Positions 1 through 8,509 of a stretch of DNA of 36,710 nt are shown here, one piece after another. Each line of letters begins with the position of its first letter. The stretch's first letter is position 1. The position numbers and the translations under genes were made by a program. The notes beneath the pieces are model-generated. The model was given only the letters and a program-made list of their open reading frames with translations, had not been told where the DNA came from and made no database searches. The DNA comes from Planctomycetaceae bacterium (GTDB lineage Bacteria > Planctomycetota > Planctomycetia > Planctomycetales > Planctomycetaceae): NCBI GenBank assembly GCA_015485495.1, contig WFTL01000019.1, positions 1 through 36,710 of the forward strand. The letters are read 5' to 3'.

Positions 1-1001
1 TTCGTATGCAGACTGCGAGACGTGGCCTGACTGTTGATTTCCAGTTCCGGACGTGCGTAACACGGCATTCCCAGGGCATTGAGCTGTTCTTCGCCCAGTT
101 CGCTTTCGATCTGCCCGCAGCCGACGATGTCATCCGAATTGATGTCCTGGTTATTCGGGCCGAACGCATCTTCCTGCACCCCCACCTGCCCATGCCGAAC
201 CGTGGCGCTGGCACCGGGAAATCCCAGAGCCCATGTGCCCCGAGGGTCCACCGCATGAACCCCCGCCCGCAGTTCATCAACAACCACGAAGTTCGACTGA
301 CCCGACGTGATTTCTGAAAACGATACAGACACGTTCACGCCGCCGGCGCCGGTCCCCCACAGAAGCTGCGCCTTCCCCGCCAGATCCGGATCATCCACAT
401 GAAATCCGTTTTCGCATTCCGGCTGCAGTTCGTGAATGCAGTTCGACCCGGGCCCCATGTTCATCCCGTAACAGCCACGGGCATACCGGTTGTCCACCGT
501 CCCGGCAAGCTGATCGCGGATGTACGGATTGTCACCAGCGGCATACGTGTCGTCCGGACACAAAAACACGGGGAGCCACGTTTCCCGCAGACGCCGATTC
601 GCCGGATCACTGATCGGCCGTTCCGGGTTGCCGCTGTCCGCCAGAACCGCCTGGTCGAGCAGCGGCAGCAGCATGACAGCCCAGTTCGCATGCACCCGCG
701 CCGGATCCGTCGGTGACACAACACCCAGCGCCACCCGATCCACCAGACCCACCGGGACCTCGCCGCCGCCCAGAGGTTCACCGGGAGGCCCGCCCCAGAT
801 CACCGCCGGAGGCATCCGTCCGAACTGCTCGTGGTAATTGTGCAGAGCCAGCCCGATCTGTTTCAGATTGTTCTGACACTGCAGCCGCCGGGCGGCCGAT
901 CGGCTGTCCTGAACCGCCGGCAGCAGCAGCGCCAGCAGAATTCCAATGATGGCGATCACCGCCAGCACTTCAACAATCGAAATTCCCCGCCGACGCCGCA
1001 T
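1..1001 (-). CDS. DUF1559 prepilin-like protein (3' end outside window)
   Basis: The protein begins with four arginines and then a type IV prepilin-like signal, [19 protein letters not shown], with Gly before the cleavage point and Glu at +5 of the mature protein. A hydrophobic helix follows, then the family-typical stretch [20 protein letters not shown] at about residues 38-57. These are the hallmarks of the DUF1559 (SBP_bac_10) family, which is strongly expanded in Planctomycetes and thought to yield pilin- or pseudopilin-like exported proteins. About 333 residues are visible and the C-terminus lies beyond base 1. The ATG at 1001 has a GGAGAGG ribosome-binding site just upstream. The residue after the processing Gly is Ile where Phe is usual. 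The gene lies 193 bp downstream of, and on the same strand as, the MauE-thioredoxin gene. Its precise role is unknown. Confidence 0.93.
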
Positions 1002-6861: not shown

Positions 6862-7278
6862 ATGCAGCCGGACCCTGCATTCGCACAGCGATTCGCCCGC
6901 GACTGGATCGACGCCTGGAATGCACACGATCTGGATCGCATCCTGTCGCATTACGCCGACGACTTCGAAATGCGGTCTCCACTCATCGAAGAATTCACTT
7001 CTGAAAGCGGCGGCATGCTGTGCGGCCGGACGGCCGTGCGGCATTACTGGCAGCAGGCTCTGGATCGCCTTCCCGACCTGCACTTCGAGCTGATCGGCGT
7101 TTATGCAGGAACAGACAGTCTGGTGATCGCCTACCACGGTCCACGCGGCCCGGCAGCGGAAGTCTTTTTTCTGAACGACATCGGGCAGGTCCGCAGCGCC
7201 TGGGCTCACTACGCCCCGCCTGACAGCCTGCCGACCGATGCGCCACCAGACGGACCACCGGATTCGTCAGCCTGCTGA
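6862..7278 (+). CDS. SnoaL/NTF2-like family protein
   Basis: A 138-residue protein with the signature of the NTF2/SnoaL alpha+beta cone fold: the opening helix FARDWIDAWNAHDLDRILSH, the strand FEMRSP, GRTAVRHYWQQAL, and a closing strand with W at about residue 113 (VRSAWAHY). Members include ketosteroid isomerase-like enzymes, polyketide cyclases and many binding proteins of unknown role; no catalytic set can be assigned. The C-terminal 20 residues are Pro/Asp rich and probably disordered. AGGA lies seven bases before the ATG. It follows the large membrane protein on the same strand and converges on the small Cys-rich gene. Confidence 0.8.
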   Translation: MQPDPAFAQRFARDWIDAWNAHDLDRILSHYADDFEMRSPLIEEFTSESGGMLCGRTAVRHYWQQALDRLPDLHFELIGVYAGTDSLVIAYHGPRGPAAEVFFLNDIGQVRSAWAHYAPPDSLPTDAPPDGPPDSSAC

Positions 7279-7370
7279 CCGACGCATCCGGCCCGGCCGC
7301 TGCACCGTCTGCCCCATCGCCGACCGCGTTCCTTTCACGCGGCCGGCGACAGCAGGTCGGAGACCGCCTC

Positions 7371-7399
7371 GACCGGTTCGAAAAAAGAGAAAACCGGTC
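7371..7399. terminator. Inverted repeat between convergent genes
   Basis: GACCGGTT (7371-7378) pairs with AACCGGTC (7392-7399) around a 13-base A-rich loop. It overlaps the stop codon of the Cys-rich gene and faces the end of the SnoaL-like gene. There is no U-tract after the stem on either strand, so a role as a bidirectional terminator is possible but unproven. Confidence 0.35.
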
Positions 7400-7664
7400 A
7401 GTTGTCCGTATCTGTCCCGGCGTCCGCCTTCTTCAGAGGACAGCACTTTTCGCAGGGAAGCGTTTCGCCCGTCAGAGGACATTCGAAGACCTTCTCCGCT
7501 TTCAGCGGACAGCAGTTTCCGCACGGCAGTTCTTCGCCTGTCAGAGGACACACGAATCCGGCCGTGTCGGTCGCACCGGCGGGCAGATCCCCGGACGATG
7601 CCACCAGACCTCCGACAGTCAGCGGGAAGGCCACAATCACACACAGAACGGCAAATCGAGACAT
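7398..7664 (-). CDS. Small exported protein with duplicated Cys-rich motif
   Basis: The 88-residue protein has a Sec-type signal (residues 1 to about 24, ending near LVASS). The mature part is dominated by two copies of CPLTGE-x-LPC-x2-CCPLK at residues 39-55 and 62-78, period 23. Eight of its nine cysteines sit in these motifs, at 39, 48, 51, 52, 62, 71, 74 and 75. Such density points to binding of a soft metal or to thiol/persulfide chemistry outside the cytoplasm, but I do not recognise the family. GGAG lies eight bases before the ATG. The gene follows the CsoR-family repressor by 49 bp on the same strand, so co-transcription and control by that sensor are likely. Confidence 0.8.
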   Translation of the reverse strand: MSRFAVLCVIVAFPLTVGGLVASSGDLPAGATDTAGFVCPLTGEELPCGNCCPLKAEKVFECPLTGETLPCEKCCPLKKADAGTDTDN

Positions 7665-7713
7665 CTCAGGACTCCTGTCACAAAACCAGCAGAAAACACA
7701 TCACTTCGCGACA

Positions 7714-8025
7714 TCACTTTGCGAACCTGAATATGGCATCCATGAGTTCGTCGTACACACTGTCGTCTCCGGACCGAATGGCATCCGTGGCGCATCGTTC
7801 CAGATAGTTCCGCAGCACCTGCCGGGACACGCCGCGCAGAGCCGACTGGACACTGGCCAGCTGCTGCAGAACCTCTGCGCATGGCCGCTGATCATCGATC
7901 ATGCGGGCGATTCCCCGCACCTGACCTTCGGCCCGGGCCAGACGTTTCTTCAGCCCGGCCCGCCGCTCGTCGTCAAACAGCGGCAGTTCAGGCGGTTCGT
8001 TCCGAGATGACGCTTTCTTACTCAT
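7714..8025 (-). CDS. CsoR/RcnR-family repressor with C-Y-C sensor site
   Basis: A 103-residue all-helical DUF156 protein: LKKRLARAEGQVRGIARMID, then PCAEVLQQLASVQSALRGVS, then NYLERC. Members are tetrameric DNA-binding repressors for copper (CsoR), nickel/cobalt (RcnR), formaldehyde (FrmR) or persulfide (CstR). The CsoR copper ligands are Cys-His-Cys. Here the two Cys (C49 and C78) keep the exact spacing of 29, but the His position (residue 74) is Tyr. A normal Cu(I) site is therefore unlikely, and the Cys-Cys pattern is closer to persulfide-sensing CstR. The start is the ATG at 8025, preceded by GGTAGG and sitting at the edge of a palindrome. An upstream in-frame start at 8136 would add 37 residues with no family counterpart. 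Confidence 0.9.
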   Translation of the reverse strand: MSKKASSRNEPPELPLFDDERRAGLKKRLARAEGQVRGIARMIDDQRPCAEVLQQLASVQSALRGVSRQVLRNYLERCATDAIRSGDDSVYDELMDAIFRFAK

Positions 8026-8040
8026 ACTGCCTACCACTAT
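8024..8040. promoter_or_regulatory. Candidate operator of the CsoR-family repressor
   Basis: ATACTGCCTACCACTAT is an imperfect palindrome (ATA-TG half matched by CA-TAT) with A/T-rich ends and a GC-rich core, the layout of CsoR/RcnR-family operators. It covers the ribosome-binding site and touches the start codon of the repressor at 8025. Binding here would block its own transcription or translation together with the downstream Cys-rich gene. Confidence 0.45.
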
Positions 8041-8509
8041 ATGCTGTCTCCGCGGCCACGGCAAGCCGCTTTTGAAAAAAAACAATTCGCGGTCCCGCAG
8101 CACACACCCCCGTCGAATCTCCGGTTCCTCCCGCATGATCCTCGGCTCCTCCTGCCGCGAATCTGCGAGGTGCCCCTTACCAGCGCGTCAATTCGCCAGT
8201 CACGGCATCCGATGCGCCGCCTCCGGGGTGAAGAGCGTGCGGGCCTGCCCCCGATGGGCCGTTTCCCCGGGCGTCCGGACACCGACCCCTGGGCGAACGC
8301 CATTGGCTTCCCGGCACTGAACCATCTCAGGCGACTGGAATCGTGTCCCACCTGGATCACCATACCGTCGTCCTGCCGGCGAATCGATTCCTGACCCGTG
8401 CCACGCTCCCAGGCGTTCGGCAGGCCTCGCTCGTGCCCATGCCGCCCCGGTCAATTGAATGACGTCGAAACACCCACCGATCACACCGGGATTTCCGATT
8501 CCCGCGCCA
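8041..8509. other. Gene-free stretch
   Basis: Roughly 470 bp between the repressor's operator and the end of the sulfotransferase-like gene. Overlapping ORFs on both strands exist, but none has a ribosome-binding site or a recognisable motif. The repressor's promoter should lie at its left end. I see no RNA gene or repeat in it. Confidence 0.5.

Follow-up and report, generated by a model that had tools for sequence, protein, structure and literature searches.

Among described repressors of the CsoR/RcnR (DUF156) family, those that sense Cu(I) carry Cys-His-Cys at ligand positions X, Y and Z, together with Tyr and Glu at second-shell positions A and B. The family is further marked by a tetrameric form with its Cys site between protomers. 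In the parts of PMC4235346 drawn on here, the Tyr at A appears to predict Cu(I) selectivity, and in those of PMC10318464 the family operator is described as pseudo-palindromic and carrying a run of G or C. Here, we describe a pair of minus-strand genes on contig WFTL01000019.1 of a Planctomycetaceae bacterium (assembly GCA_015485495.1), whose positions 1-36,710 on the forward strand form the window, i.e. the whole 36,710-nucleotide stretch analysed. A DUF156 repressor with Tyr at position Y is followed, 49 bp downstream, by a small, predicted exported protein with cysteine repeats (the Cys protein). Comparison across planctomycetes indicates that the CsoR-Cys pair is a real, recurring regulatory unit; with a probability of roughly 0.62 it is a two-gene, autoregulated soft-metal response operon whose product would bind metal outside the cytoplasm.

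The repressor scores 89 bits against PF02583 (gathering cut-off 22.8), which places it in DUF156, and its gene is the sole PF02583 match of a genome that is 98% complete. Its fingerprint is C49-Y74-C78 (codons 7879-7881, 7804-7806 and 7792-7794), aligning with Cys36, His61 and Cys65 of Mycobacterium tuberculosis CsoR (chain 2hh7), and the CsoR-type repressor with these two cysteines and Tyr at 74 that had been proposed in an earlier reading of the DNA (the original prediction) is thereby confirmed. The comparison set consisted of 38 CsoR matches in 392 genomes of an even phylum sample, with 30 loci returned; besides the window and a pair in genome G009, 36 matches remained, of which 29 were examined (28 loci and a second CsoR of G009) and seven left out (G-numbers denote genomes, L-numbers fetched stretches or loci). 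Not Cys-His-Cys but C-Y-C occupies X-Y-Z in the window and in all 16 paired relatives, i.e. in 17 of 17 CsoRs adjacent to a Cys protein; the paired homologue in G009 is 67% identical to the window repressor. His at position 74, which the original prediction had named as its own undoing, was found in no repressor directly beside a Cys protein. The 28 other planctomycete CsoRs comprise 26 C-H-C, one A-H-C and one C-F-C protein, with Tyr in none. At position A, Tyr is present in 20 of these 28, and the 17 paired repressors have Pro (15, the window among them), Lys (one) or Gln (one); Glu at B is retained in the window. Cys at X and Z without His at Y, as seen in the window repressor, might also suit a CstR-like protein, in a comparison that leaves aside the Y residue of CstR itself. 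Within about 1.5 kb on each side, the 28 other genes have a P1B ATPase neighbour in 12 cases (strong match) and in one (weak), other HMA or Cus genes in four and unrecognised neighbours in nine; the A-H-C gene (L044) has HMA and MerT/CopZ neighbours, and the C-F-C gene (L021) thioredoxin-like, MerTP-type and HMA neighbours. The window repressor fails the C-H-C test of a copper CsoR; its mode of action most probably resembles that of a dithiol repressor for soft metals.

The partner gene encodes a hydrophobic N-terminus and then two copies of CPLTGExLPCxxCCPL, which agrees with the eight cysteines announced for it beyond the N-terminal stretch; a further residue, C8, lies inside that stretch. 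Family members have one to three repeats, all four Cys are invariant in the 25 rows of the one-repeat set (A1), and a hydrophobic N-terminal stretch is found in 34 of 34 tabulated rows. Together with a lipobox-like LLSGC noted by eye in one member (L050/L136), these N-termini argue in favour of export, in keeping with the earlier suggestion that the effector would act outside the cytoplasm. The protein has no match up to E 0.1 in Pfam, NCBIfam or PHROG, none in plasmid records at E 0.1 (one family member as query) and none in two same-genus genomes at E 0.01. A profile search of the even phylum sample at E 0.001 recovers the family in 18 of 392 genomes, weaker matches being looser variants such as CPLTGEQIPACCCP and CPLTGELVCADRCP, and a back-translated motif pattern recovers 37 stretches among species genomes, nearly all labelled planctomycete, with one labelled Nevskiales, one Calditrichaeota and one only Bacterium. 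The pair in the Nevskiales-labelled metagenome-assembled genome (MAG; L062/L112) and the lone Cys protein in the Calditrichaeota-labelled MAG (L075/L127) may reflect transfer or binning error. Kinship with the HMBD heavy-metal domain (YTCPMHPEV...CPxCG) was considered and is unsupported (hhalign probability 17%). In L051/L144, where the Cys gene lies beside a divergent C-Y-C CsoR (NYPENC), an in-frame TAG falls within the motif (606-649, minus strand, of L051). A second type of Cys-rich exported protein (CxC...FC...CxCCC) adjoins the CsoR-Cys pair in L114 (10545-11108, plus strand), and a reading frame in L017 (6950-7456, plus strand) resembles it by eye.

Fifty stretches with a Cys protein were fetched (L106-L155), giving 51 loci with the window; these are interdependent, since several genomes contribute more than one locus (two or three) and close relatives are included. 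A CsoR gene adjoins the Cys protein in 17 of the 51 loci (16 fetched and the window), so that the expected recurrence of the pair among planctomycetes is seen and the contrary outcome, a Cys protein that never occurs beside a DUF156 gene, is not. In 25 loci a MerR gene is found no more than 2 kb from the Cys protein, either next to it or separated by a single carrier gene; among these are L111 with a weak match and L143 with a match inside a longer frame on the opposite strand. In L147, MerR is about 3 kb away, and neither regulator is seen in eight loci (L109, L117, L124, L125, L127, L128, L130 and L154), several of them at contig ends. Exclusivity of the Cys protein to CsoR is not supported; its more frequent company with MerR suggests that it is an accessory of metal resistance and not a partner specific to CsoR. 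The spacing C-x34-C-x8-C, which we take to be that of the Hg(II) triad of Tn501 MerR and to differ from ZntR, CadR and CueR, occurs in 18 of the 25 MerRs and is absent from five (L111, L138, L140, L148 and L152); it was not judged in L107 (masked letters) or in L143 (a script match in letters that are not MerR-like). Among NCBIfam models, five of the MerRs matched best to MerR (three) or to a Zn-responsive one (two), all below the curated cut-offs.

The surroundings of the family are rich in metal genes. Of the 50 fetched stretches, 18 have MerT/CopZ fusions and four have MerC-like genes, and a MerC-like gene stands between CsoR and the Cys protein in L134 as it does between MerR and the Cys protein in L108 and L139. 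In L128, one strand carries the Cys protein, a MerP-like protein and a complete MerA (490 bits, with SCCAE at its end), with 1.2 kb without a recognised gene separating the MerP-like protein from MerA. MerT exceeds its cut-off in 14 of 18 Cys-protein genomes of the phylum sample versus 25 of 374 others, a count that ignores the relatedness of the genomes and in which MerT often belongs to the same locus. The link to MerR, MerT, MerP and MerC is a feature of the effector family and not of the window itself; on another contig of the window genome, a MerR gene adjoins a MerT/CopZ-like gene. Comparison indicates that the effector is an unannotated family of exported-type Cys-repeat proteins, linked to metal resistance and under CsoR or MerR control. 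MerT/CopZ-type fusions near MerR genes were recorded in L106, L107, L109-L111, L116, L119, L123, L131, L138, L142, L145, L146, L149-L151, L153 and L155; two that were scanned consist of zf_CopZ, MerT and HMA, and the family genomes are mostly without merA above the cut-off.

An alignment upstream of 14 paired genes gives the operator consensus TATAGGGGTAGGGAGTACCAGTA. A matrix built from the 13 loci other than the window scores 28.5 bits at 8019-8041 (minus strand), the next best place in the 36.7-kb window reaching 5.1. The matrix of all 14 genes gives scores of 23.5-36.7 for 14 of the 16 CsoR-type loci fetched, including G009, which is outside the matrix (23.5); a site above 23 bits is thus found in 15 of 17 paired loci, window included, in accordance with the family rule of a pseudo-palindrome with a G or C run. 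The two loci without an operator score are L136, whose contig starts inside the gene, and L144. The window copy has G runs of two only and is weakly palindromic. The best score in MerR-type loci is 8.8. Sites at a C-F-C gene (15.2) and at a C-Y-C gene of a Streptomyces plasmid (14.6) are hints only: scores near 15 bits are not decisive because an unrelated place in the G009 stretch reaches 14.3; at a Cytobacillus C-Y-C gene the 14-gene matrix finds no site. A degenerate operator pattern with at most one mismatch has one match in genomes G000 and G009, namely the csoR site of G000 without mismatch, which means little because G000 also contains one match to a control pattern read backwards; the G009 site falls outside the pattern and was found by the matrix.

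In 7200-8200, no promoter-like site other than the predicted promoter is found (shuffles give 0.2 on average), and upstream of the operator the 13 other loci have TTGAC (12) or TTGCC (one). The operator overlies the -10 hexamer, the position expected of a repressor site. It starts 16 nt before the ATG in the window and 24-43 nt before it in the 13 other genes; with its -10 box so close to the csoR ATG, the predicted mRNA would be almost leaderless, unlike those of the other paired genes. The original prediction had placed a palindrome over the repressor start, and it was right about the place rather than the palindrome. As evidence in its own right the palindrome (8024-8040) was rejected, as five of eight arm positions pair (by eye) and it is outside the top three imperfect palindromes of a 125-nt stretch; as such it is not beyond chance, and the operator derived by comparison is the real signal.

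Features of the repressor-Cys protein locus, in window coordinates
Feature	Position	Strand	Basis
Predicted promoter: -35 TTGCCG (8059-8064), 17-nt spacer, -10 TATAGT (8036-8041)	8036..8064	-	promoter scan
Predicted operator TATAGTGGTAGGCAGTATGAGTA, over -10 box and start codon	8019..8041	-	comparative matrix
CsoR/RcnR (DUF156) repressor, 103 aa	7714..8025	-	PF02583 match, alignment to solved CsoRs, paired homologue in G009
Intergenic gap, 49 bp, with Shine-Dalgarno-like AGGAG (7672-7676)	7665..7713	-	sequence
Predicted exported Cys-repeat protein, 88 aa	7398..7664	-	sequence, profiles
Predicted signal peptide or N-terminal anchor (roughly residues 1-24, with no cleavage site predicted by the tools)	7593..7664	-	hydrophobic stretch
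Cys repeat 1 FVCPLTGEELPCGNCCPL (C39, C48, C51, C52)	7503..7556	-	four Cys invariant in family rows
Cys repeat 2 FECPLTGETLPCEKCCPL (C62, C71, C74, C75)	7434..7487	-	separate profile match

The soft-metal operon takes the pair, the fixed Tyr, the operator, the promoter, the hydrophobic N-terminus and the association with metal genes from sequence and comparison; co-transcription, export itself, metal binding, the identity of the metal and protection are what we infer from them. In the proposed mechanism, the C-Y-C CsoR would repress its own promoter from a G-rich operator over the -10 box until a thiophilic metal ion, with Hg(II) placed slightly ahead of Cu(I), bridges Cys49 and Cys78 of neighbouring protomers in a two-thiolate site with Tyr in place of the classical His. 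The metal-bound repressor would leave the DNA and allow joint transcription of both genes, and the exported Cys protein would capture metal outside the cytoplasm through its C-x8-C-x2-C-C clusters, a capture that may lower influx or supply carriers of the MerP/MerT/MerC or Cus type, where present, with the metal. The earlier notion of a defence or buffering unit for either a reactive sulfur species or a soft metal survives in its metal half, metal genes being common around the family; the sulfur half finds no support among the Pfam families listed for the neighbourhoods.

A number of observations weigh against this reading, some against the operon and others against its mercury side. No metal gene is found among six window proteins scanned. 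The recurrence of the pair is probably not a set of independent events: in a quick tree of 57 CsoR rows, built without the Tyr column, from few columns and with many forks open, a single group unites 18 of 19 Tyr rows with the Phe row (Shimodaira-Hasegawa-like approximate likelihood ratio test, SH-aLRT, 83, below the 95 mark), within which 16 paired planctomycete rows form a subgroup (SH-aLRT 93) and L144 sits elsewhere on a long branch. This grouping of Tyr rows suggests that the 17 pairs are mostly a single inheritance. AlphaFold gives the Cys protein no confident fold, with a predicted local distance difference test (pLDDT) score of 52 for a two-repeat member (9 rows) and 66 for a one-repeat member (25 rows); in the latter model the N-terminus is a long helix and the Cys part contains short strands, and both models were judged too weak for a fold search. 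According to the parts of PMC4235346 consulted, the W-X-Y-Z pattern of Cys and His does not predict the metal sensed. The gene merA exceeds its cut-off in only two of 35 family genomes (G515 and G525), and the best MerA match of the window genome, 384 bits, stays below the cut-off of 454.45. MerT exceeds its cut-off in 5 of 17 CsoR-type genomes versus 13 of 18 other family genomes, and among the 16 fetched CsoR-type stretches a mer-like gene is seen in one (L134) and Cus or copper genes in four (L113, L122, L135 and L144). Finally, two CsoRs that have His but, as aligned, no first Cys, A-H-C in L044 and V-H-C in L111 (11270-11593, minus strand), sit together in the tree and both lie near MerT/CopZ fusions, which means that Mer-like carriers are not tied to the aromatic residue. 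MerA was also considered as a general partner of the family and rejected, with two of 35 genomes above the cut-off and perhaps four, as G517 and G519 have two-part matches that may be further merA genes.

The strongest competitor is a strict Cu(I) operon, in which C-Y-C would be a copper CsoR minus its His that binds Cu(I) through two Cys, and the Cys protein an extracytoplasmic copper buffer. We regard it as possible, at clearly less than even odds. The G009 pair lies within a copper island (multicopper oxidase, TolC-like, Csp-like, P1B ATPase and a second, C-H-C CsoR), and CusA-like genes are found near L113, L122 and L144. C-Y-C genes outside the phylum adjoin HMA proteins and heavy-metal P-type ATPases as well: the Streptomyces plasmid CsoR, which keeps Tyr at A, is followed by an HMA protein and such an ATPase, and the Cytobacillus firmus plasmid CsoR by thioredoxin, HMA, CcdA, HMA and P-type ATPase genes. 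Set against this, the 17 paired repressors have neither the His at Y nor the apparently Cu(I)-predictive Tyr at A, the effector keeps company with Hg-spaced MerRs in 18 loci, and the C-F-C relative (genome G495, L156) is the first of a row of genes on one strand, among them thioredoxin-like, MerTP-type and HMA genes. As the inducing metal, Hg(II), somewhat short of an even chance, is slightly favoured over Cu(I), the next most probable candidate, with another soft metal or a sulfur species accounting for the rest. These odds were kept because the two-part merA matches on the one hand, and the His-bearing neighbours and MerT counts on the other, pull both ways. The Cytobacillus firmus gene row (L160, 4016-8294), with arsA about 3.4 kb upstream, is itself a candidate soft-metal cassette.

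Rather than a buffer, the Cys protein could be a metal chaperone for MerT, MerC or Cus carriers, or a thiol-redox protector of exported proteins. Its CxxCC is invariant, and MerT/CopZ fusions, MerC-like and MerP-like genes stand beside it in many MerR-type loci, but reference carrier genes are not seen in 11 of the 16 fetched CsoR-type stretches (four being contigs of 3-10 kb with little flank), and we consider such a role improbable. Least probable of all is a CstR-like persulfide or polysulfide sensor, in which C49 and C78 would be joined through di- or polysulfides, with the Cys protein as a buffer of sulfane sulfur or redox stress: the 29-residue Cys spacing matches CstR (C31/C60) and TTHA1953 (C39/C68) as given in the parts of PMC9774590 and PMC10318464 used, and thioredoxin-like genes lie beside the C-F-C and Cytobacillus C-Y-C relatives, the latter also with CcdA, but the effector also occurs with metal-type MerRs, and no rhodanese, sulfite exporter or SQR is among the families found in at least two of 107 proteins from 15 CsoR-type loci (25 of 108 families listed, single matches being possible; the 107 are what is left of 144 script-picked reading frames after 37 were dropped by eye as likely antisense or doubtful).

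A bolder and more tentative extension of the soft-metal operon is that C-[Y/F]-C CsoRs constitute a subgroup that spans phyla, with the Cu(I) sensor converted into one that binds Hg(II) through two thiolates by the exchange of the His ligand for an aromatic residue. Such repressors and MerR would be functionally interchangeable as regulators of a new exported Hg-trapping Cys-repeat family that protects cells mostly without mercuric reductase; we consider this less likely than not. Eight other plasmid relatives examined are C-H-C. To our knowledge, no earlier mercury-responsive branch of the CsoR family is known, and C-[Y/F]-C would be the first. If true, the ligand set of a sensor-family branch would follow from one natural substitution, His to Tyr or Phe, and metal selectivity in DUF156 proteins would become directly testable; planctomycetes would defend themselves against mercury or copper by extracytoplasmic trapping and not by reduction, and an unannotated protein family, present in 18 of the 392 sampled phylum genomes, would get a name.

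Beside the pair, a SnoaL-like gene (6862-7278, plus strand) is convergent and has no visible metal link, and the window contains no Rfam family at gathering score and no tRNA. At title and abstract level, and in partial listings, the literature yielded no CsoR that senses mercury or has C-Y-C, and no account of this Cys protein. As far as the parts consulted go, the main text of PMC8261052, which deals with the diversity of mer genes, mentions neither CsoR nor ArsR, and its table gives Planctomycetes a count of 1; parts of PMC5146963 and PMC10141476 were also drawn on.

Overall, the locus shares features with several described systems. Like the Cu(I)-sensing CsoRs of M. tuberculosis and Geobacillus (PDB 2hh7 and 4m1p), the repressor is a DUF156 protein with Cys at X and Z and a predicted G-rich site at its own promoter, but it has Tyr at Y and no Tyr at A, and its partner gene encodes a predicted exported Cys-repeat protein instead of a P1B ATPase or CopZ. 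With the dithiol sensors CstR of Staphylococcus aureus and TTHA1953 of Thermus it shares a likely sensing site of two Cys at a distance of 29 residues; it differs from them in its associations with metal genes, sulfur genes being absent from the Pfam families listed for its surroundings. The Cys-protein family resembles mer operons in its Hg-spaced MerRs and its MerT-, MerC- and MerP-like neighbours, once on the same strand as MerA, and departs from them in the scarcity of merA among family genomes and, at this locus, in the CsoR-type regulator. We know of no CPxTGExLPCxxCC protein among the mer components. The Csp four-helix copper storage proteins and the metallothioneins are presumably the nearest counterparts of the effector, being likewise small, rich in Cys and proposed as holders of soft metals; what sets the Cys protein apart from both is the absence of a Pfam match and its short C-x8-C-x2-C-C repeat behind an export-type N-terminus.
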